Assembly: GCA_902777355.1 (NCBI GenBank)
Contig: CACYTU010000007.1
Location: 1-58,930 of the forward strand
Direction of reading: 5' to 3'
Origin: an uncultured Lachnospiraceae bacterium
GTDB lineage: Bacteria > Bacillota > Clostridia > Lachnospirales > Lachnospiraceae
DNA length: 58,930 nucleotides
Positions within the stretch are counted from its first letter, which is position 1; each line of letters opens with the position of its first letter. Positions 47,454-58,930 of the stretch are shown here, piece after piece. The notes under the pieces are model-generated. The model saw only the letters and a program-made list of their open reading frames with translations, did no database searches and was not told the DNA's origin. The position numbers and the translations under genes are program-made.

Positions 47454-47813
47454 TCAGACGGTCAGCTTGTCCAGTATTTCTGCCAGTACAGCCCACCCAT
47501 CCGGATCCAGATCTGCCATCATAAGTGCAAACCGCTGCTGAAAGGAAGCTTTTTCATCTGTAAATAGTGCTTTCGTCCATTCAGTTAGCTTCTCTTCATC
47601 CACCTTATGGGGCAGCATTTCGCCGCGGCCCGTACAAAGCCATTCCTTGGAGACTGAATATCTGGAGCAGATGGAATGGATTACAGCATCTGAGGGACGG
47701 GTTCTGCCGCACTCATAATTTGTGTAGGTTTTAGGATTGATTCCGGCACCTGTCGAAAATTCCTCCCGTGTCAGGTGCAGGGCTGTTCTGAGCTGATGCA
47801 GTCTGGTCTGCAT
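47454..47813 (-). CDS. XRE-family regulator, paralogue 1
   Basis: A Cro/CI-type helix-turn-helix protein of 119 residues: HTH at ~5-60 (LTREEFSTGAGINPKTYTNYECGRTRPSDAVI), then KEWLCTGRGEML and a helical tail. It is a clear paralogue of the regulator 760 bases away on the other strand. The start at 47813 is chosen because GGGAG is 8 nt upstream; the frame is open 62 codons further, across dispersed repeat B. Such regulators often come from mobile elements, but no phage gene is adjacent. Confidence 0.82.
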   Translation of the reverse strand: MQTRLHQLRTALHLTREEFSTGAGINPKTYTNYECGRTRPSDAVIHSICSRYSVSKEWLCTGRGEMLPHKVDEEKLTEWTKALFTDEKASFQQRFALMMADLDPDGWAVLAEILDKLTV

Positions 47814-47943
47814 GATCATGTCTCCCTTCTGTTTCGGACATACTTGTGGCCATGGGCGGGTGCCCGCAAACATGTATGAATAAACTACGCATTGCTCCGC
47901 GCTCTGGCGCTCCCGCAATGCTCCACACATTCGTACCCCGCCC

Positions 47944-48095
47944 CGCTTCGGCCGCTTCGGCGGCCTTGCGTTGCTCTGATGTACTGCGCAGCAGTACATT
48001 GCTCATAGGGTGGGCGCTCGCAAATGTCCGCAAGACCGGATATGCGAGCATATCCGTCTTTGCGCCCGCTTGCTCGCTGTTTATTCATACTTTTT
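47944..48095 (-). repeat. Dispersed repeat B, copy 2
   Basis: The inverted counterpart of the repeat in the recA leader, with an extra palindrome (TGTACTGCTGCGCAGTACA). It lies between the two divergent XRE genes, just upstream of paralogue 1. Confidence 0.65.
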
Positions 48096-50098: not shown

Positions 50099-51673
50099 AT
50101 GTATTGCTATCATTGCGGAAACGAGCTGGCTCCAAATGCCTCGTTCTGTGGAAAGTGCGGGAATCCTGTTCATATGAGTCCGTCATCCGGAGGGCAGAAC
50201 GCATCCTATCCGGGTTCTGAACATCGCAGGCCGATCCTCGGAATCCCTGCTTCGGGTGCAGGCGGCAGCGGAGGGGATCAGACGTCACAGCAGTATTCCG
50301 GGGGAGGCAGCAGCTATTACGGAGATTACCAGCAGCAACAGACTTCATATGCCGATTTCTATAACAGCGCCGGAAATCAGACACCCCGGCAAAACTCCAA
50401 TGGGGGATACTATAACAACGGAGGAGGAAATCAGACACAGCAGAATTCCTATACGGGCACTTATAACTACGGTGGGAACCAGCCGTCCCAGCCCGGCGCA
50501 TACGGAGGCCCTTACAACAGCGGAGGGAACCAGACATCCCAGCCCGGCGCATATGGCGGCCCTTACAACAGCGGTGGGAACCAGTCATCCCAGCCCGGCG
50601 CATATGGCGGCCCTTACAACAGCGGTGGGAATCAGACATCTGTACCCGGCCCGGCCTATAACGCGTTTCAGGCGCCGGCTGCACCTGCTGTCGCGGCGCC
50701 TTCCCTTCCAAAGCATCTGGCCAACGTCGGAACTGCAGACACAGGATCGGGAGGTATCAGGGACATCTATATCGTAGATTTTCTGGTGAGGCTGTTTACG
50801 ATTAAGGAGAATATTCCCCTGTGCATTTATCTGTTGATAAATGTTGTCATAATGGGACTGGTCTGCACCATGTTCACGGAGGGGAACGTTCTTCTTGGAA
50901 TGCTGGCCGGCCTGGTGGTCTACATCATCTCCATCACTGTGACGCTCTCGCCCTTCGGAGAATGGCTCCTCAGAAAACGTACGGGATGCGGCCCGATCAC
51001 GGATCAGAATGTAGCTGCCCGCATGACACCTCTGTTCAACGAGGTCTACGCAAGAGCAAAGAAGGAGTATCCTTCTCTTCCTGACGACATTTCTCTTTTC
51101 ATGAATGAAGATAAATCTCCGAATGCTTTTGCTACCGGAAGACGCACCGTATGCATTACAAGGGGGCTTCTCAATATGTCGGACGACCAGATCAAGGGAA
51201 CGCTCGGACATGAATTCGGACACCTGGCCCACAAAGATACGGATAAAGTTCTCGTGATCAGCATCGGAAATACCTTTATCACTGCTATATGTATCCTGGC
51301 TCAGATCGGAGCGTTTATCATGGAGATCATGATGAACATTTTTGCGATCTTCATGGGCAGAGACGGTATTTTTATCTCTATCATGGCTGCTCTTTCCAGG
51401 ATCCTGACCATAGTTCTGATAGGACTGTTTATGAAAGTCTGGACCGGGCTCGGCGTCCTTCTCGTGAATAAGACCAGCCGGGGCAACGAGTATCAGGCAG
51501 ATGAGTTTTCCTGCAGACTTGGATATGGAGGCGGACTGATCGCGATGCTGCAGGCCCTGGGGGGCTGTCCCAAGCCCAGCGGGCTGTTCGCGGCGCTGGC
51601 TTCCACCCACCCTGACACGCAGGACCGCATTACCAGAATCAGCCACCTGATGACGGTATATCCGAATCATTGA
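50099..51673 (+). CDS. Zinc-ribbon M48-family membrane metallopeptidase
   Basis: A 524-residue protein. Residues 1-24 are a zinc ribbon (YCYHCGNEL..FCGKCGNPV). Residues ~30-200 are a Gly/Gln/Tyr/Asn-rich arm; part of it is a ~19-residue repeat (GGNQTSQPGAYGGPYNS). The catalytic part is HtpX-like: helices around ~242-290, then the zinc site H371-E-F-G-H375 with the third ligand E464 (EYQAD), and helices at ~390-445. HtpX-type proteases act in membrane protein quality control. AAAGGAG sets the start; 52 earlier codons in frame lack a site. It shares the zinc-ribbon-plus-repeat design with the protein encoded at 53924. Confidence 0.85.
   Translation: MYCYHCGNELAPNASFCGKCGNPVHMSPSSGGQNASYPGSEHRRPILGIPASGAGGSGGDQTSQQYSGGGSSYYGDYQQQQTSYADFYNSAGNQTPRQNSNGGYYNNGGGNQTQQNSYTGTYNYGGNQPSQPGAYGGPYNSGGNQTSQPGAYGGPYNSGGNQSSQPGAYGGPYNSGGNQTSVPGPAYNAFQAPAAPAVAAPSLPKHLANVGTADTGSGGIRDIYIVDFLVRLFTIKENIPLCIYLLINVVIMGLVCTMFTEGNVLLGMLAGLVVYIISITVTLSPFGEWLLRKRTGCGPITDQNVAARMTPLFNEVYARAKKEYPSLPDDISLFMNEDKSPNAFATGRRTVCITRGLLNMSDDQIKGTLGHEFGHLAHKDTDKVLVISIGNTFITAICILAQIGAFIMEIMMNIFAIFMGRDGIFISIMAALSRILTIVLIGLFMKVWTGLGVLLVNKTSRGNEYQADEFSCRLGYGGGLIAMLQALGGCPKPSGLFAALASTHPDTQDRITRISHLMTVYPNH
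50488..50640 (+). repeat. 57-bp tandem repeat in M48 gene
   Basis: About three in-frame copies of a 57-bp unit encoding GGNQ(T/S)SQPGAYGGPYNS (units near 50467, 50524 and 50581). Confidence 0.8.
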
Positions 51674-51703
51674 AGAAGAGAGCGGACTGCTTTTCCGGAA
51701 GAT

Positions 51704-51734
51704 TATCTCAGCAGGGTGATCCCCTGCTGAGATA
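51704..51734 (+). terminator. Hairpin after M48 gene
   Basis: A perfect 13-bp stem TATCTCAGCAGGG/CCCTGCTGAGATA, without a T-run. It probably ends or stabilises the M48 transcript. Confidence 0.65.
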
Positions 51735-51763
51735 GCGGAGGCGCGGAGAGCACCTGAGGCGGT

Positions 51764-51792
51764 TTGACAAAGACACTATGAGACAATATAAT
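51764..51792 (+). promoter_or_regulatory. Consensus promoter of the 52-59 kb cluster
   Basis: TTGACA, exactly 17 nt, TATAAT: the ideal sigma-A promoter. It gives a leader of ~385 nt. The leader has GTAAATTCGGTTAT (51863-51876), like the M48 leader, and a long hairpin (CTCAC..CG..GGGG with CCCC..CG..GTGAG, 52079-52121). No gene was accepted in 51674-52182. Confidence 0.88.
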
Positions 51793-52182
51793 ATGTGGGT
51801 CAGACACATAATCTACACAATATTTAAATGATGTATGAGAAAGCAGGAGTTTATTGCTATTTGTAAATTCGGTTATAGATGTACAGCCGAAGACAGCTGA
51901 TCTGGAATATTGGTGTCAAACATTTCGCGGAAGTTCTCCTTATAATCTCGAATGATTTGTATTCTATTCTGTCGGAATTGTTTCGGCCGGTAAGGCACGA
52001 AATATCTGACAGATTTTTTTATACCTTTTCTCTTAACAGACAGGCCTGTTTAAAAAAATTATTATGTGTTCCTGAAGTCTCACACGCGGGGGTGTCTGGT
52101 CAGATTCTCCCCGACGTGAGGAATTCTTTGCGCCGGCTGCAGATGAATGTCTGGACGGCGGTTATAGCTGACAGGAGGGAGT

Positions 52183-53913
52183 ATGGCAGAGCGAATAATT
52201 CAAACAGCGGATTTGTCCGCGATTGAGAACAGACTGGACGCCGCGATGCGGGGAATTGAGGTGATCGCAACCGGCCTTGACGATGTAGATACAAAGGTCA
52301 TCAAGGTCAATGACGAGCTTTCGAGGCTTGCTGCGGACTTCAACGCCTACGTCCGGCGGCAGGAATTTGCAAATAATAAGCTCCAGGCTCAGAGCGTACT
52401 CAATGATGTCCGCGCTGAAATTGAAAGAAAATACGGTCATTATAACAGGGTCAGGAGATCCACGACAGGTATCCTTCAGGCAGATGACCTGGGTATTGTC
52501 AGAAAAGCAGCAGTGACGGACGCTGCCGAGAGTGTCATGATCGAGACACCCGGATACTGGCTGGCTCCATGCCTTGTCGCGCTCGCCGCATGGATCAATG
52601 ATCAGCCGGAGCTTGCCGGAAAAGCTGTCAAAGAAGCTATCAGGCGAAACGACGAAAAGACTTCTCTCTTCTTTGCCCTTGTCTGCAGGCGTGCCGGACG
52701 CGGAGATACCAGCCTGAAATGGGTCCAGAGATATCTCGAGAGTCAGGACGAAGAAAATCTGAACAGAAATACAGTCATCATTCTTGACGCTTATGCCAGC
52801 GGTCTGCTCGGTGCGGATTCAGAGGGCGTTATTTCGACCATTATGACTGGATGGCTGGATAATCTTGTCGAAAAACCCGGTTTTGTGGAGCAGCAGAGAG
52901 ACCAGTGGTCCAAGGCTCTTATCAATAAAAAGAAAAAATACGATTCCGGTTCTTATATTTATCTTCCCAAATACAGCAGCACATGGCCGCTTCTCGTCCA
53001 GGTTATGGAGGGCGCGGAACTCCACGCGATCATCGTTGATTACTTCATGGACATTTTCGAGAAGGAGGCGTCTACCAAGGAACTCAAGGAGCAGCTGGAC
53101 GAGATCCTGGAAAGTCTGGTCACCGATTTCGATGATGAGGAGACTCCCCTTCGCAAACAGGAAAAGCTGAATGAGCTGATCATAGAGTTTGACGGTGATC
53201 TGCAGAGAGCAAGGATGAATATGCAGATGGAGGAAAAGTCCTTTGAAGAGCGCAAGGACTTTACCCAGCTGCTGACAGACTCCGCTATGCGGCCTGAAAT
53301 CAGTCACGCCAATTCCTCCACACAGAAATTTGCCATCGCGCTGACAAAGGACTGGATCAAGGATGCATACAGCGATATCACTGCAAAAAACCGCATGGCT
53401 ATTCCTGTAGATATCCAGCTGAACATAGGAACATTCAGCGCAGTCACCCGGGACGGTACCAACGAGCCCGCCCTTGAACAGGAGATGAGGGCACACTACG
53501 AAGCTGAAAAGAATGCTGAGCTGGCAAAGCATGTTCTGACCGCCGGTGATAAATACAGCCTCTTTGCGGGCTGTGTGATCGGTGCTTTAGGAGTGGGCAT
53601 GCTGCTGGCGGGATCTGGGTTTCTGGGGGTGATCGCGATTGTCGTCGGAATCGGAATGATCATTCGTTATTTCAGCAAAAAGAAAAATGTGGAACAGGCC
53701 AGACAGAGAATTATGGAAAATTATGCCCGCGTAACGGAAGAAAATCTGAAAATCCTACGGGCATTGCTGGCGGAAGTATATGATTTCAGAGATGAGTTCA
53801 GGGATAAAGACGCTGTTTATGATGAAGTGATCGCATTCCTGGATCAGATTTCTCCCGATCAATATGTGAGAAAGCTTTCGGGAACCACCAGGCGTATGGC
53901 CGGACAGGCTTAG
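52183..53913 (+). CDS. Coiled-coil membrane protein of unknown function
   Basis: A 576-residue protein not recognised as a known family. Residues ~10-90 look like a coiled coil (hydrophobic heptads, DVDTKVIKVNDELSRLAADFNAYV). A mostly helical charged domain follows (~100-450). A Gly-rich hydrophobic stretch (~457-500) can form two membrane helices. The C-terminal ~75 residues are helical and charged. AGGAGGG precedes the ATG. It is the first gene after the consensus promoter and is followed after 10 nt by the zinc-ribbon repeat gene, so the two are co-translated neighbours. A membrane scaffold is an inference from shape only. Confidence 0.75.
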   Translation: MAERIIQTADLSAIENRLDAAMRGIEVIATGLDDVDTKVIKVNDELSRLAADFNAYVRRQEFANNKLQAQSVLNDVRAEIERKYGHYNRVRRSTTGILQADDLGIVRKAAVTDAAESVMIETPGYWLAPCLVALAAWINDQPELAGKAVKEAIRRNDEKTSLFFALVCRRAGRGDTSLKWVQRYLESQDEENLNRNTVIILDAYASGLLGADSEGVISTIMTGWLDNLVEKPGFVEQQRDQWSKALINKKKKYDSGSYIYLPKYSSTWPLLVQVMEGAELHAIIVDYFMDIFEKEASTKELKEQLDEILESLVTDFDDEETPLRKQEKLNELIIEFDGDLQRARMNMQMEEKSFEERKDFTQLLTDSAMRPEISHANSSTQKFAIALTKDWIKDAYSDITAKNRMAIPVDIQLNIGTFSAVTRDGTNEPALEQEMRAHYEAEKNAELAKHVLTAGDKYSLFAGCVIGALGVGMLLAGSGFLGVIAIVVGIGMIIRYFSKKKNVEQARQRIMENYARVTEENLKILRALLAEVYDFRDEFRDKDAVYDEVIAFLDQISPDQYVRKLSGTTRRMAGQA

Positions 53914-53923
53914 GAGGGACAGA

Positions 53924-55066
53924 ATGGGAGATTATAATACAATCGGCAGCTTTAGGGAGTGCCCTTTCTGCGGAGCAAGACTTCCTGTGGTAGCACGGTT
54001 CTGTGCTGTCTGCGGAGGTACTCTTCCCGCATTAGACACACAGCAGATGCCGCAGGGATCGCCCGGCCAGGGTGGACCCGGTTTCTACAATCAGCAGTCC
54101 CGCCAGGGCGGATACCCTGTCTTTGACATGCCCGGACAGCCGGGATTCCAGTCATCTCAGCCCCAGGGCGGGCAATATGCACCGCCGGAGCCGGCACAGT
54201 ATGAACCTCAGGCCGGACAGAATTCTCAGCCGGAGCAGGCACAGGACTGGCCTTTCCAGGGCGGGTTTGATTTTTTCAGTCAGCAGTCTGATCAGGGCCA
54301 GGGCGGATACCCTGTCTATGACATGCCTGCGGAATCTGAACACGGGGCAGGGGCGCCGGCTCAGACCGCAGAACAGGTTCAGCCGGAGCAGCCTCAGGCA
54401 GAACAGGGACTTTTCCAGCCTTTTGGAATGCCCGGACAGGCGCCGCAGGATGTACAGCCGGAACAGCCTCAGGCAGAACAGGGACTTTTCCAGCCTTTTG
54501 GAATGCCCGAACAGGCGCCGCAGGATGTACAGCCGGAGCAGCCTCAGGCAGAAGAACAGCCTCTGACTGAGCAGCAAACACAGCCGGAACAGACACAGGA
54601 CTGGCCCTTCCAGGGCGGATTCGGTTATTATAATCAACAGTCCGATCAGGCGCAGGGCGGATTCCCTGCCTTCGATATGACTGATCAGCCTGAGACACCG
54701 GCAGAAGAGCCGGCTCAGGCAGAAGAGCCCGCACAGGTTCAGGCAGAAGAGCCCGCACAGGCAGAAGAGCCGGAAGTACATCCGGAAGAAAAGTCTGGGC
54801 AGAACGCTTTCCCTGTTTTCGGAATGCCAGTGGAATCTGAGCCTCAGGCTGAGGAACCGGTTCAGGCAGAAGTACAGGCGGAGACTGAGCAGGAAACACA
54901 GGCGGAGCAGACACAGGACTGGCCTTTCCAGGGCGGATTCGGTTTTTATAATCAGCAGTCCGATCAGGCGCAGGGCGGATTCCCTGCCTTCGATATGACT
55001 GATCAGCCTGAGACACCGGCAGAAGAGCCGGCTCAGGCAGAAGAGCCCGCACAGCACCGACAGTAG
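53924..55066 (+). CDS. Zinc-ribbon Pro/Gln/Glu-repeat protein, N-terminal part (frameshifted)
   Basis: The protein begins with a zinc ribbon (C13, C16, C27, C30 in ECPFCGARL..FCAVCGG), then enters long Gln/Pro/Glu/Gly-rich repeats (DWPFQGGF, QPFGMPGQAPQDVQPEQPQAEQGLF, PAFDMTDQPETPAEEPAQAEE). It stops at TAG 55064. The same repetitive protein continues in another frame: adding one G after 55054 would give PAQAPTVEPEQAEEP and join it to the downstream part, for ~697 residues in all. AGGAGGG precedes the ATG. No membrane segment; probably an extended tether with a metal-binding head. Confidence 0.75.
   Translation: MGDYNTIGSFRECPFCGARLPVVARFCAVCGGTLPALDTQQMPQGSPGQGGPGFYNQQSRQGGYPVFDMPGQPGFQSSQPQGGQYAPPEPAQYEPQAGQNSQPEQAQDWPFQGGFDFFSQQSDQGQGGYPVYDMPAESEHGAGAPAQTAEQVQPEQPQAEQGLFQPFGMPGQAPQDVQPEQPQAEQGLFQPFGMPEQAPQDVQPEQPQAEEQPLTEQQTQPEQTQDWPFQGGFGYYNQQSDQAQGGFPAFDMTDQPETPAEEPAQAEEPAQVQAEEPAQAEEPEVHPEEKSGQNAFPVFGMPVESEPQAEEPVQAEVQAETEQETQAEQTQDWPFQGGFGFYNQQSDQAQGGFPAFDMTDQPETPAEEPAQAEEPAQHRQ
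54588..55053 (+). repeat. Near-identical 145-bp direct repeat
   Basis: Blocks 54588-54735 and 54907-55053 share almost all bases (from GCAGACACAGGACTGGCC to AGAGCCCGCACAG). The frameshift lies exactly at the right edge of the second block. Confidence 0.8.
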
Positions 55067-55128
55067 AACCCGAACAGGCAGAAGAGCCGGGAAAACAGTC
55101 TGAGCAGAACGCTTTCCCCGTTTTCGGC

Positions 55129-56016
55129 ATGCCAGTGGAAGCCGAGGTTCAGGCAGAAGAGCCGGTTCAGGAAGAAGAGCAGGCTCAGCTTCAGCAGGGA
55201 GCCTTCCAGCCCTTCGGAATGCCCGGTCAGGGACCGCAGGATGTCCAGCCGGACCAGGGCGGCTTCCAGCCATATGATCAGCCGGGCCAGGAACCGCAGC
55301 AGGCCCAGCCCCAGCAGGGAGCCTTCCAGCCCTTCGGAATGCCCGGTCAGGGACCGCAGGATGTCCAGCCGGACCAGGGCGGCTTCCAGCCATATGATCA
55401 GCCCGGTCAGGGACCGCAGCAGGCCCAGCCCCAGCAGGGGGATTTCCAGCCCTTCGGAATGCCGGGCCCGGGACCGCAGGGTGTCCAGCCGGACCAGGGC
55501 GGCTTCCAGCCATATAATCAGCCCGGTCAGGGACCGCAGCAGGCCCAGCCCCAGCATGGAGCCTTCCAGCCCTTCGGAATGCCCGGTCAGGGGCCGCAGG
55601 GTGTCCAGCCGGACCAGGGCGGCTTCCAGCCATATAATCAGCCGGGCCAGGGACCGCAGGATGTCCGTCCGGAACAGGGCGGCTTCCAGCCATATGATCA
55701 GCCGGGCCAGGGACCGCAGCAGGCCCAGCCTCAGCAGGGTGCATTCCCCGCTTATACAGGACCGGGACAGGGACAGAATCAGGGTATGCCTCCGGGAAGA
55801 GGCTATCCCGGACAATTCGGACAGCAGGGCGGAGTGATTCCCGACAGGACAGGAAGACCGAGAATTCCCAAAAGGATTAAACGCGTTTTCAAACCGGCGG
55901 CAACAGATACTCCTGAGGAAATCGTCGCCGAGGAAGACGTCATGTTCGCAAAAGGCTTACCGGAGTGGTCGATTGAGCCGCCGGTCGTTCCTGTCAGAAG
56001 GAGAAGAAATGGTTAA
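55129..56016 (+). CDS. Zinc-ribbon repeat protein, C-terminal part (after frameshift)
   Basis: This frame continues the preceding protein; it is open upstream of this first ATG to the frameshift near 55054, so the ATG is probably not a real start. Residues ~20-235 are a 40-residue unit (AFQPFGMPGQGPQDVQPDQG-GFQPYDQPGQGPQQAQPQQG) repeated about four times, with partial units at the end. The last ~60 residues are not repetitive: basic (PRIPKRIKRVFKP), then acidic, and end in VVPVRRRRNG. That tail may be the functional docking end. The stop overlaps the next start by 8 nt. Confidence 0.65.
   Translation: MPVEAEVQAEEPVQEEEQAQLQQGAFQPFGMPGQGPQDVQPDQGGFQPYDQPGQEPQQAQPQQGAFQPFGMPGQGPQDVQPDQGGFQPYDQPGQGPQQAQPQQGDFQPFGMPGPGPQGVQPDQGGFQPYNQPGQGPQQAQPQHGAFQPFGMPGQGPQGVQPDQGGFQPYNQPGQGPQDVRPEQGGFQPYDQPGQGPQQAQPQQGAFPAYTGPGQGQNQGMPPGRGYPGQFGQQGGVIPDRTGRPRIPKRIKRVFKPAATDTPEEIVAEEDVMFAKGLPEWSIEPPVVPVRRRRNG
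55200..55740 (+). repeat. 120-bp tandem repeat, ~4.5 copies
   Basis: Units begin at 55201, 55321, 55441 and 55561 with an exact period of 120 bases; a partial unit follows. Identity between units is very high, which suggests recent expansion or homogenisation. Confidence 0.92.
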
Positions 56017-56455
56017 TACACCTCGCACATATTCCGAATGGCGGCAGCTGTTCGATATGATCAAAAAACGGACAAATGACGCTGAAGTGCTGCAGGCAAT
56101 GAGGAGCGGGACGATTGAATGGCAGTCCGGGATTGCGGACCGATTTTCACAAAAGCTGGTGGATGCGATCAACTTCCGTATGAATAAGGCAGGTGACAAC
56201 TTCCAGAAGACTATGGCACATTCCGGGGGTGAGGCAGGAGTGATCCGCGCTCTTGAGAGTCTCCGGAAAGAATACTATTTCCTTTGCTGTGCGGTAGATA
56301 TTCCCTGCCTTCCAGAGGATATCCGAAAGAAGTATATCGGTCTTATCATCGATCAGGCCAACAAGACCCAGGAGTCCCTGGAAAATTCTTCCAGACAGGA
56401 CAGGAGCGGACGTCTTCTGTATCTGATCAGGCAGCATCGGGTGAATAATTTCTGA
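56009..56455 (+). CDS. Small helical protein of unknown function
   Basis: A 148-residue, largely helical soluble protein (MVNTPRTYSEWRQLFDMIKK start; IPCLPEDIRKKYIGLIIDQAN in the middle). AGAAGGAG precedes the ATG, which overlaps the end of the repeat protein by 8 nt, so translation is coupled. An earlier in-frame start at 55973 would lie deeper in the repeat gene and has no ribosome site. No family was recognised; co-location suggests a partner of the repeat protein or of the AAA+ ATPase. Confidence 0.72.
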   Translation: MVNTPRTYSEWRQLFDMIKKRTNDAEVLQAMRSGTIEWQSGIADRFSQKLVDAINFRMNKAGDNFQKTMAHSGGEAGVIRALESLRKEYYFLCCAVDIPCLPEDIRKKYIGLIIDQANKTQESLENSSRQDRSGRLLYLIRQHRVNNF

Positions 56456-56502
56456 TCTGTCTGTACTTGTGGGCATAGCTCACAGACTTACTTTTATAAT
56501 TA

Positions 56503-56528
56503 AAGCTGCTTCAGCCATAAGCAGCTTG
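56503..56528 (+). repeat. Hairpin between cluster genes
   Basis: AAGCTGCTT and AAGCAGCTT form a 9-bp stem; no T-run. A TATAAT at 56495 just before it lacks a -35 box. It may adjust expression of the ATPase relative to upstream genes. Confidence 0.5.
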
Positions 56529-56656
56529 AAATTGTATATCATGCCGTCCGGGCGGCGCCGGGAACGGGAAGACGCACCGGTTATTCTTCGTCTGCCGGCG
56601 CCGCGCCGCTTATTGTCTTGTCAAGGAATAATCTCGCAGGAGGCGAAATCTGTTAT

Positions 56657-58246
56657 ATGAGTAATCTGATCGAAAGCACCGACCTTTTAAGAAGGTATAC
56701 CATCGCCCGGATTCCCTTTATTGCCGTTAATACGATTGAAAAAGACAGATGTCTGGAGATACTCAAGAGGATCGCCGCAGACCTGCAGCTCTCGTTTTAT
56801 GTCAGTTCCCTTTCTTCGGGAATTTATGACCTGACGAGCGGTAAACATCTGGATGATGACACGACATTTTACGGAGCGGTCATGTATATGACCGAGCAGA
56901 TGAGGCGCAAACAGTATCTGACCCTGGTTCTCTCCGAGGTGCCCGATCTTTCCACTGACAATGCGGACGCAAAGCAGCTGCTCGCCATGGCCAACCTGGC
57001 CAATCAGAACGGAGGATCGATCATAGTAATCTCGGACAATCCCGTCTGGGATCAGCTTCAGCGTCTTGGAATGACTGTCAAACTGGACCTGCCGGATGAA
57101 GAGGAAATGTACATGATCATCCGGAGTTATATCGATGATTACCGCAATTCCATTCCCATAGAGTGGGACAACAATGATGTGAGGGAAGCGGCTTCCACTC
57201 TTGTGGGTGCCACCAAAATTGAGGCGGAAAACGTCATCGCGGCACTGCTCGCCAACAACTGTATCCGCAAATCGGATATGGATGAAGTCCGGCACGCCAA
57301 GGACAGGCTGTTCTCGGACATTTCCGGCCTGGAGAAGATTACGGTCGACGATAATGTCAAGGATGTCGGAGGCCTCGAGGGCCTGCGGAAATGGCTGGAT
57401 GAGAAACGACTGCTGCTAACTCCCGAGAAGAGGGACGAATTGAGAAGCAAGGGGCTCAGGCCTCCCAGGGGGATTCTTCTGGTAGGCGTTCCCGGCTGCG
57501 GCAAGTCCATGTCCGCCAAATCAATCTCTGCCAACTGGAAGCTGCCGCTCTACAGGCTTGATTTTGCCACTGTGCAGGGCAGTTATGTCGGTCAGTCAGA
57601 ACAGCAGCTAAGGAAAGCGCTCGCTACAGCAGAAGAAGTTGCACCCTGTATACTATGGATCGATGAGATTGAAAAGGGCCTTTCGGGAGCCACTGCCGGT
57701 GCAGGAGACGGGGGCGTCTCGACCAGGATGGTCGGTCAGTTCCTCTTCTGGCTGCAGGAATGCAGGAAAAATGTATTTGTCGTGGCCACAGCGAACGACG
57801 TGAGCATGCTGCCGTCCGAACTCCTCAGAAGGGGGCGTTTTGATGAACTGTTCTTCGTGGATCTTCCCACGGCGGAAGAACGCAGACAGATCCTCTCCCT
57901 CTATATGCGCAAATATCTGTCCGTCAGGTTTGAGGGGGCGGTAGCTGATAAAATCGTTGAAATGACCGACGGATTTACGGGCGCGGACCTGGAATCCACC
58001 GTCAGGGACCTGACCTACAGGCAGATCTGCGGGAACGGTTTTATTCTGAACGAGCAGAATATCATCAACGCTTTTGATAATGTGGTTCCTCTTTCCCAGA
58101 CAAGCCCTGAGAAGATAGAAGCGATCAGGGAGTGGGGCAAGGAAAGGGCAGTGCCTGCCTCGGGTATTCCCATCGGCAGCGACAAATTGAAGGAAAAATC
58201 AAGCGGACCCAGGCTTCGCCGGGTGCTTCTTTCGACCGGAAACTGA
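56657..58246 (+). CDS. Ycf46-like two-domain AAA+ ATPase
   Basis: A 529-residue protein. Residues ~1-215 resemble a degenerate ATPase domain (start [22 protein letters not shown], like the opening of cyanobacterial and plastid Ycf46). The C-terminal domain is a full AAA+ module: Walker A GVPGCGKS (277-284), Walker B ILWIDE (332-337), sensor 1 ATAN (377-380), arginine-finger segment RRGRFDE (391-397) and a helical lid. The wording [12 protein letters not shown] and [13 protein letters not shown] is characteristic of the Ycf46 group. The start at 56657 has GGAGG 14 nt upstream; a TTG at 56618 would add 13 residues. In cyanobacteria Ycf46 affects carbon uptake; in Firmicutes its role is unknown. 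Confidence 0.88.
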
Positions 58247-58337
58247 GTCCCGGTCTTTTTTCCGCATACAGGTGACGGGATATTGGATCCGGAATAATCA
58301 GGTTCACAAAAAACAATCGAATCCGAGGAGGTAGAAT

Positions 58338-58832
58338 ATGCCAAGACCGATGTTCAGATCTCCTGAACAGAAGAACAGTCAGAATCAGCAGACACAGTTT
58401 CTGAATACAAGACAGGTGAGGCAGACAAGGCAGCTGAGCAAAATGGAGATCGACAGGCTGCTTCGGAAACCCCGGTCAAAAAAATACATGGAGGCTATAC
58501 GCAGGCTGGATGCCGGCGGCCATGTCACTAATCAGACCAAAGTAAACGAAATGCTCGCGGCGATCAGGGAGGAATTCCCGGAACTGGAACTGGCGCAGGT
58601 CAGCAATCTGCTGGGGATCGTCTCCAAGTGTTATCTGGGCGCCCCCTATGAAGTCCATTCTCTGGACGTGGCGGGCAGGATCGTTGAGCACTACAAAGCT
58701 TTTTACAAAATGCCCGGTGAGCTGGAAAAGGCCCGCGGCCTTGCCATTCACGGAGGATATGAGTTCATTGAAGTGTATACGGACTGCTGCCGGGCAGTGA
58801 GCTCCAGCGGCCAGGTCTCGGTGATCCAGTAA
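58338..58832 (+). CDS. Small basic N-terminus protein of unknown function
   Basis: A 164-residue protein. The first ~45 residues are basic and Gln/Arg-rich (QTQFLNTRQVRQTRQLSK), probably disordered. The rest (~50-164) looks helical and compact (NEMLAAIREEFPELELAQVSNLLGIVSKCYLG). GAGGAGG precedes the ATG. It is 91 nt after the AAA+ gene and ends before a large hairpin, making it the likely last gene of the cluster. No known domain was recognised. Confidence 0.72.
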   Translation: MPRPMFRSPEQKNSQNQQTQFLNTRQVRQTRQLSKMEIDRLLRKPRSKKYMEAIRRLDAGGHVTNQTKVNEMLAAIREEFPELELAQVSNLLGIVSKCYLGAPYEVHSLDVAGRIVEHYKAFYKMPGELEKARGLAIHGGYEFIEVYTDCCRAVSSSGQVSVIQ

Positions 58833-58833
58833 T

Positions 58834-58930
58834 TCAAGACTCGCTCGCGAGTCTTGCGCGCCGGATGCGGGTTGACATGTCTTGTTTTTCAAAGACATGT
58901 CAACATCTTCCGCATCGCATCCGTGCGCAT
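58834..58930. repeat. Nested inverted repeats at window end
   Basis: First a palindrome CAAGACTCGC-TC-GCGAGTCTTG (58835-58856), then a 14-bp stem GTTGACATGTCTT(T)/(A)AAGACATGTCAAC (58870-58904) with a T-rich loop. GCGCCGGATGCGG before it and CCGCATCGCATCCGTGCGC after it can pair to extend the stem. The first is a probable terminator of the cluster; the second may be a large RNA or DNA hairpin cut by the window edge. Confidence 0.65.

Follow-up and report, generated by a model that had tools for sequence, protein, structure and literature searches.

What do the genes clustered at the end of this stretch of DNA encode, and which of them belong together? The stretch, called the window here, consists of all 58,930 bases analysed (bases 1-58930 of contig C7, which has 72465 bases) and comes from a draft genome that is 84% complete with 5% contamination. 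An earlier note had proposed a six-gene membrane-remodelling system made up of an M48 peptidase, a membrane protein (P2), a zinc-ribbon protein (gene 3), two small proteins (P5 and P7), and an AAA+ ATPase (P6). The open reading frames (ORFs) that it named are all present, on the + strand and at the positions it gave them. P2, gene 3, P5, P6, and P7 form a conserved, membrane-linked AAA+ gene set in which both small proteins are core members, and a search of open-access literature by titles and abstract openings found no description of it. Our preferred reading is that positions 52183-58832 are a self-contained operon encoding an ATP-driven remodelling machine at the inner face of the membrane, which would act on P2 by way of short tails. 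We give this reading, boundaries and mechanism taken jointly, a probability of roughly 45%.

The gene set recurs in related loci across many lineages. Four orthologous AAA proteins were compared with one genome per species, giving at least 556 relatives, of which the best 80 loci were used. Neighbouring proteins were sought in 83 loci, the 80 plus L024-L026 (L026 and L043 are the same genome). The loci were sorted by neighbourhood into a core group of 57, a variant group of 7, and a group of 16 that we take to be of the Ycf46 type, a label that no search supplies. Counts per gene refer to testable loci. In the core group, where AAA identity is 42-80%, P5 lies 5' of the AAA gene in 52 of 53 loci, P2 is present in 50 of 51, and P7 in 42 of 48, lying upstream in 29 loci and downstream in 13; no P7 was found in the other 6. 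The variant loci (AAA identity 34-39%) have P5 and P2 in five of five and P7 in none of five; five of the seven have three copies of P2, and four (L086, L087, L090, and L094) have an SPFH/zinc-ribbon protein. The Ycf46-type loci (AAA identity 33-41%), which come from Clostridia, Paenibacillaceae, Planctomycetes, archaea, and one cyanobacterium, have none of these genes (P5 0/16, P2 0/14, P7 0/11). P2, gene 3, P5, the AAA gene, and P7 thus recur as a group in related loci, and the M48 peptidase does not.

A tree of the AAA proteins (82 rows, quick method; 8 rows from broken, cut, or repeated genes excluded) sets 15 of the 16 Ycf46-type rows apart at 100% support, while L099, which has a long branch, falls on the side of the core. 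Going by the titles of their records, the core rows span at least seven phyla. Three of these, Actinomycetota, Bacteroidota, and Pseudomonadota, are each recovered as a single clade; the others are Bacillota, Mycoplasmatota, Fusobacteriota, and Vulcanimicrobiota. Streptococcus oralis, Enterococcus, and one Fusobacterium vincentii record fall among the Clostridia, as expected from some transfer. Within a comparison set of 295 genomes of the same order, AAA orthologues (70-74% identity) are found in three besides the window's own. An Allobaculum copy of the operon (L052:7247-12183) has P2, AAA, and P7 in pieces and is either decaying or from an error-rich assembly.

Apart from the AAA protein and an optional zinc ribbon in gene 3, the set consists of unnamed families that have neither an accepted match in the libraries nor a relative of solved structure. 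P2, P5, and P7 have no Pfam or NCBIfam match above the curated cut-offs by which such hits were judged. P5 and P7 have no match in PADLOC or PHROGs, and P2, P5, and P7 profiles run against PDB sequences gave weak matches only.

The unit begins with P2 (Table 1). The product of the gene before it belongs to the M48 family (PF01435, 87.3 bits against a Pfam cut-off of 20.3) and has an N-terminal zinc ribbon (25.1 bits against 25), as the earlier note held, but its label as HtpX-like does not extend to the NCBIfam HtpX equivalog (60.3 against 369 bits). Across the ORFs of the 83 loci, M48 relatives amount to one weak match (L070, E 2e-4). The gap between the M48 gene and P2 holds a hairpin and a promoter-like site, the sole perfect one among 8 sites found by a scan of the region where 6.2 were expected; it is a consensus match, not proof, and possibly the start of the module's transcript. 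Because related loci lack M48 and a consensus promoter precedes P2, the peptidase was placed outside the unit, and its candidacy as a member was rejected. The short spacing reported for the cluster holds for P2 and gene 3, which are 10 nucleotides (nt) apart, and the 8-nt overlap of gene 3 and P5 (56009-56016) is confirmed, but 509 nt separate M48 from P2, 201 nt P5 from the AAA gene, and 91 nt the AAA gene from P7. Inverted repeats (by eye) occupy 58850-58930, just 3' of P7, and reach a scaffold gap: a run of NNN directly follows base 58930, so anything farther on C7 rests on a scaffold join. Elsewhere in the window, a Clostridiales-1 RNA (RF01699, 71.4 bits) lies on the - strand at 47879-48085, overlapping the ORF at 47454-47999.

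Table 1. Features of the P2-P7 operon and the adjoining M48 region, by position in the window (aa, amino acids)
Feature	Positions	Strand	Source
M48 metallopeptidase, zinc ribbon and GGNQ repeats, outside module	50099..51673	+	Pfam PF01435
12-bp hairpin 3' of M48 gene, without T run	51705..51733	+	by eye; absent from computed scan list
Sigma-70-type promoter-like site, TTGACA-17-TATAAT	51764..51792	+	consensus scan, 12/12
P2, 576 aa: long N-terminal helix, TPR-like helical part, hydrophobic hairpin at about 457-499, short tail	52183..53913	+	
Gene 3 part one: zinc ribbon, P/Q/E-rich repeats, ends at in-frame stop	53924..55066	+	
Gene 3 part two, other frame: repeats and C-terminus	55067..56016	+	
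Gene 3 C-terminal W motif, LPEWSIEPP...RRRR, constant element	55957..56013	+	
P5, 148 aa, small protein; shares 8 nt with gene 3	56009..56455	+	
P6, 529 aa, AAA+ ATPase: degenerate first domain, active second domain, C-terminal RRVLL tail	56657..58246	+	
P7, 164 aa, predicted four helices and six strands	58338..58832	+	

P2 is a candidate scaffold linked to the membrane. A C-terminal hydrophobic stretch is present in all 52 aligned P2 proteins, either as two paired segments or as an unbroken run of at least 34 residues in 45, and as a single run of 19-28 residues in 7. This agrees with the membrane anchor that the earlier note proposed; the body of P2 is TPR-like and helical. In PADLOC P2 matches LeoBC only, and weakly (17.3 bits, E 5e-4), and in PHROGs it has two weak matches. 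As to a possible dynamin-type (LeoBC-like) stalk and paddle fold, the 50 matches listed for P2 are mostly TPR proteins, with no dynamin among them. At E <= 0.001 the P2 profile finds 38 of the 295 same-order genomes, most of them through weak matches in the hydrophobic and coiled regions. Strong matches (E < 1e-30) are found in the four genomes with the module and in seven others. Two of the seven (G161 and G246) have a quartet of genes for an SPFH protein, a transmembrane (TM) protein, a zinc-finger protein, and P2; four (G126, G199, G214, and G321) have a standalone P2; and G108 also has P2. None of them has an AAA match at E <= 1e-40. Quartets of SPFH/zinc-ribbon, TM, zinc-finger, and P2 genes without AAA are seen at L135:5129-9722, L136:4685-9275, and L014:1485-6151. 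The standalone genes at L137:6865-8496, L140:8134-9744, and L141:7460-9091 adjoin a gene for an ABC-type ATPase (labelled by eye), and there P2 has a C-terminal W motif of its own, of the kind found in gene 3.

The constant part of gene 3 is its C-terminal W motif. The zinc ribbon and repeat arm previously described for gene 3 are both there, but not in a single ORF; with the stop at 55066 and the C-terminal part in another frame, the gene is broken inside its repeats, either by a genuine frame break or by an error of assembly. Outside the window gene 3 mostly encodes a short protein. A zinc ribbon is found in 10 of 62 gene-3 ORFs and is therefore optional, and long repeats are seen in the window only, which argues against the idea that a zinc-ribbon arm is the working part. 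The W motif, [LF]P-x-W-[DSNT]-[LIV]-x-P, is usually followed by another P and basic residues and was found by pattern in 43 of 51 loci. Six of the eight misses are actinobacterial loci that carry LP-x-W-[DE]-P-L-P-P; L044 shows no motif, and in L076 it is fused to the C-terminus of P2. The 14 testable Ycf46-type loci, used as a control, have none. As background, a pattern demanding P-P was found near the C-terminus of 7 of 1671 ORFs of at least 100 aa, all of them gene 3, although three of the seven are one gene fetched three times; this pattern undercounts, since it missed the P2 tail of L137. Three of four standalone P2 proteins from one genus end in the W motif (the fourth is degenerate and lacks the W), and the P2 of G108 has none. 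The motif is found on P2's own C-terminus in two lineages, and the best reading of gene 3 is that a P2 tail has split off into a gene of its own.

P6 has the residues of an active ATPase. Its AAA domain scores 101.6 bits (Pfam cut-off 21.2), and its second half matches CDC48/VCP. The second domain has Walker A at G277-S284, Walker B at D336 and E337, and a pore loop at Y310-G312, all labelled by eye. In 25 AAA rows the Walker-type and putative arginine-finger residues are invariant and Y310 is nearly so. P6 also matches phrog_8638, a phage AAA family whose function is unknown, over nearly its full length (E 1e-102). The description as a two-domain Ycf46-type protein stands for the AAA domain; the degenerate first half is taken from inspection by eye and from the earlier note, and P6 does not group with the one cyanobacterial member in the tree.

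The presence of P7 goes together with a short tail on P6. Of 54 rows that have P7, 53 carry a basic-hydrophobic motif (such as TRKVLV, RRAVLT, or KRSIII) in the last nine residues of P6; none of 11 rows lacking P7 does, and the rate in shuffled proteins is 3.5%. The single P7 row without a tail, L052, is uninformative, its own AAA gene being broken and the script having taken another AAA gene there. The 21 rows excluded from the total of 86 are Ycf46-type or not testable for P7, and three of them have the tail. The motif also ends P5 in 25/54 rows with P7 and 0/11 without, and P2 in 19/49 and 2/11, respectively. The first residues of P7 match a loose form of it in 51/55, a figure without a control. 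On a tree of 62 rows, from which rows of unknown, cut, or broken state were excluded, P7 and the P6 tail agree in every row, with only two changes (two independent pairs, sign test p 0.5). No fold match was found for P7. Among the 295 same-order genomes it is present in five, four with the module and G330. The last has an operon (L142:2586-9110) of Hsp70, a double AAA protein with AAA_lid_6, a weak P7 relative (E 4.5e-13), and a Sel1/TM protein whose C-terminal part is hydrophobic. This is possibly a parallel system, and a P7 relative beside a different AAA protein fits a role with AAA motors.

These parts may be combined into a mechanism. P2 would be a membrane-anchored helical scaffold, to which gene 3 would supply a docking peptide in the form of the W motif. 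P6 would form a ring with an inactive first tier and a second tier that threads its substrate, presumably P2 complexes. The direction of work would be either dismantling or re-assembly, by analogy with the action of Vps4 on ESCRT-III. P5 and P7 would be adaptors, P7 acting with the basic-hydrophobic tail of P6. A bolder version, which we consider rather unlikely, is a terminal peptide code: P2, P5, and P6 often end, and P7 begins, with the basic-hydrophobic motif, so P7 would read or sort the tails, the W motif would couple P2 to the rest, and the whole would be a counterpart of ESCRT/Vps4 built from unrelated parts. If the mechanism holds, this is an unrecognised bacterial AAA+ system for membrane scaffolds, and its tails should make interactions easy to predict. 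The make-up of the set is kept across at least seven phyla, the set also occurs on plasmids, and boundaries can now be given to genes annotated merely as hypothetical proteins.

Several observations weigh against the proposed remodelling machine. P2 is found without this AAA protein in 7 of the 295 genomes, and P7 is accompanied by a different AAA protein in one of its five, so the scattering of the unknown proteins without the ATPase, which the earlier note had named as a test, is seen in part. P2 proteins with their own W motif lie in genomes without an AAA match at E <= 1e-40, suggesting that recognition of the motif may not fall to the AAA protein. An initial, narrower tail pattern matched 42 of 68 P6 rows and was then broadened, and the rows contain near copies; because P7 and the tail change jointly only twice, their association is weakly supported in terms of independent events. 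With gene 3 frame-broken, the copy of the module in the window may be only partly functional. Finally, no MIT or Snf7 match was found by Pfam in P0001-P0007 at E <= 1.

A somewhat unlikely alternative is that the same machine serves a mobile anti-phage or anti-plasmid conflict system, sensing or dismantling an invader's membrane or assembly complex. The set is sparse within its order (three other genomes of 295) yet spans seven phyla, and it occurs on plasmid records. A plasmid collection has 18 records with an AAA match, four of them at 50% or more; one record, H1, is a 2.1-Mb Fusobacterium sequence and perhaps a chromosome. AAA and P7 occur together in two Komagataeibacter plasmid records and one from Comamonas, and the operon was inspected in one of each. 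The operon is also annotated inside the streptococcal satellite phage Javan368. However, three S. oralis stretches (21.6 kb) keep the operon at the same site with little or none of the satellite's other 8.8 kb, suggesting that the boundary of Javan368 may be over-drawn, which weakens Javan368 as evidence of mobility. In S. oralis strains L033, L034, and L037 the operon follows an rpsD-like gene beside integrase-like remains (labels by eye), and the site is possibly an integration hotspot. Phages otherwise provide little: an AAA match at E <= 1e-40 is found in 51 of 50,697 phage records, only Javan368 exceeding 60% identity; P7 is found in one, Javan368; and a scan of viral contigs gave two distant AAA proteins only. 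A search of E. coli with a Moraxella AAA gene gave no match at the DNA level.

The flanks of the operon also speak against a conflict system, as they are not enriched for defence genes. Near flanks match 45 PADLOC families and far flanks 49 (E <= 1e-10, 148 proteins each). Among the 25 matches listed per side are JetC, JetD, PD-Lambda, and pAgo near the operon, and type I and II restriction-modification, PDC-S01, mad2, and mad3 far from it. The sample left out actinobacterial loci, two near-duplicates from S. oralis, ORFs at the ends of loci, and any ORF shorter than 100 or longer than 1000 aa. From 175 far ORFs a random 151 were taken, and 148 of 151 were used on each side, after dropping three L065 near-duplicates from the near set and the L052 AAA gene and two L033 genes from the far set. 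For the module itself, PADLOC searches with P2, P5, P6, and P7 gave general AAA models for P6 (IetA, mad8, and TRIP13) besides the weak LeoBC match, and no toxin- or nuclease-like part was matched. Across the NNN gap, at C7 59297-72338 (L011:3298-16339), lie genes for a Tubulin_2 protein (E 4.9e-40), a DO-GTPase2 protein below the cut-off (17.9 bits against 27), a 1340-aa protein without a match, and a TM vWA protein. This looks like a proposed tubulin/DO-GTPase conflict set or FtsZl1 remodelling set, and sets of the former type have been proposed as conflict systems (PMC7159879). That neighbourhood would favour a conflict role, but it sits across the gap, and its six proteins have no relative in the ORFs of the 83 AAA loci.

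A role in housekeeping, as an envelope-stress or membrane-assembly system akin to the SPFH/zinc-ribbon (YdjGHI-type) sets, is distinctly unlikely. Four variant loci (L086, L087, L090, and L094) agree with it, as the AAA gene there is surrounded by three P2 genes and by genes for a zinc-ribbon SPFH protein, a zinc-finger protein, and a TM protein, and so do the quartets without AAA in G161, G246, and G042. Band-7/zinc-ribbon sets near PspA are tied to membrane upkeep (PMC11237479). But the link to SPFH is limited to variant and quartet loci, the 57 core loci giving one weak match (L076, E 1e-4, other strand), and a patchy distribution is atypical of a housekeeping system.

Chaperone roles in the assembly or metal loading of other enzymes have been proposed for other AAA proteins. 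Such a role is improbable here. The distant AAA relatives do have radical SAM genes as neighbours at 8 of their 16 loci (checked with Pfam in L098) and DUF2997 in L105, but no enzyme recurs beside the core module: among the 148 near flanking proteins no Pfam family exceeds two members. The six-gene system of the earlier note, in which M48 would cleave what the AAA protein delivers, is highly improbable, since neighbouring positions on the same strand and the zinc ribbon with repeats found in both M48 and gene 3 are outweighed by the near absence of M48 from related loci, the promoter-like site and hairpin between, and the optional ribbon.

The preferred reading, a remodelling machine acting on P2, can be set beside several known systems. 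The anti-phage system IetAS has an AAA protein that falls in the same broad class (E 1.4e-33 for P6 with the IetA model of PADLOC), but P6 scores 91.6 bits where the cut-off is 510. Among PHROGs, phrog_8638 matches P6, none names P5 or P7, and P2 is matched only weakly. FtsZl1/vWA/GTPase sets (PMC2875224) and GAP1-N2 DO-GTPase/tubulin sets (PMC7159879) resemble the set next on the scaffold, across the gap; the AAA loci differ from them in having no Tubulin_2 relative among all 83, and G335 carries the module without a Tubulin_2 match. In SPFH/zinc-ribbon (YdjGHI-type) systems the resemblance is to the variant and quartet loci, where SPFH/zinc-ribbon and zinc-finger proteins accompany P2; by their composition these loci may be likened to the YdjGHI-type set of Bacillus subtilis. 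PMC11237479 also mentions a two-domain AAA protein near PspA whose first copy is inactive, possibly of the P6 family.

Two further likenesses concern the ATPase and the proposed manner of its recruitment. Ycf46-type AAA proteins are defined by an inactive first AAA domain and an active, CDC48-like second one. P6 shares the two-domain layout and can be aligned to them over most of its length at 33-41% identity, for example to L102 (Leptolyngbyaceae) over residues 20-501, and has one Walker A (277-284). The core differs from them in its neighbours, P2, P5, P7, and the W motif being found in none of the Ycf46-type loci where testable, and L102 and 14 others lie across a 100% branch from the core in a comparison with one cyanobacterial row and no plastid row. 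Vps4 has an MIT domain and acts with a Snf7-type partner, ESCRT-III. P2 differs from that partner by its hydrophobic hairpin, and P7 matches CHMP1B at noise level only (E 1.9). The likeness to Vps4/ESCRT-III proposed here is one of analogy, in that an AAA+ protein would be brought to a membrane-bound helical protein by short tails.

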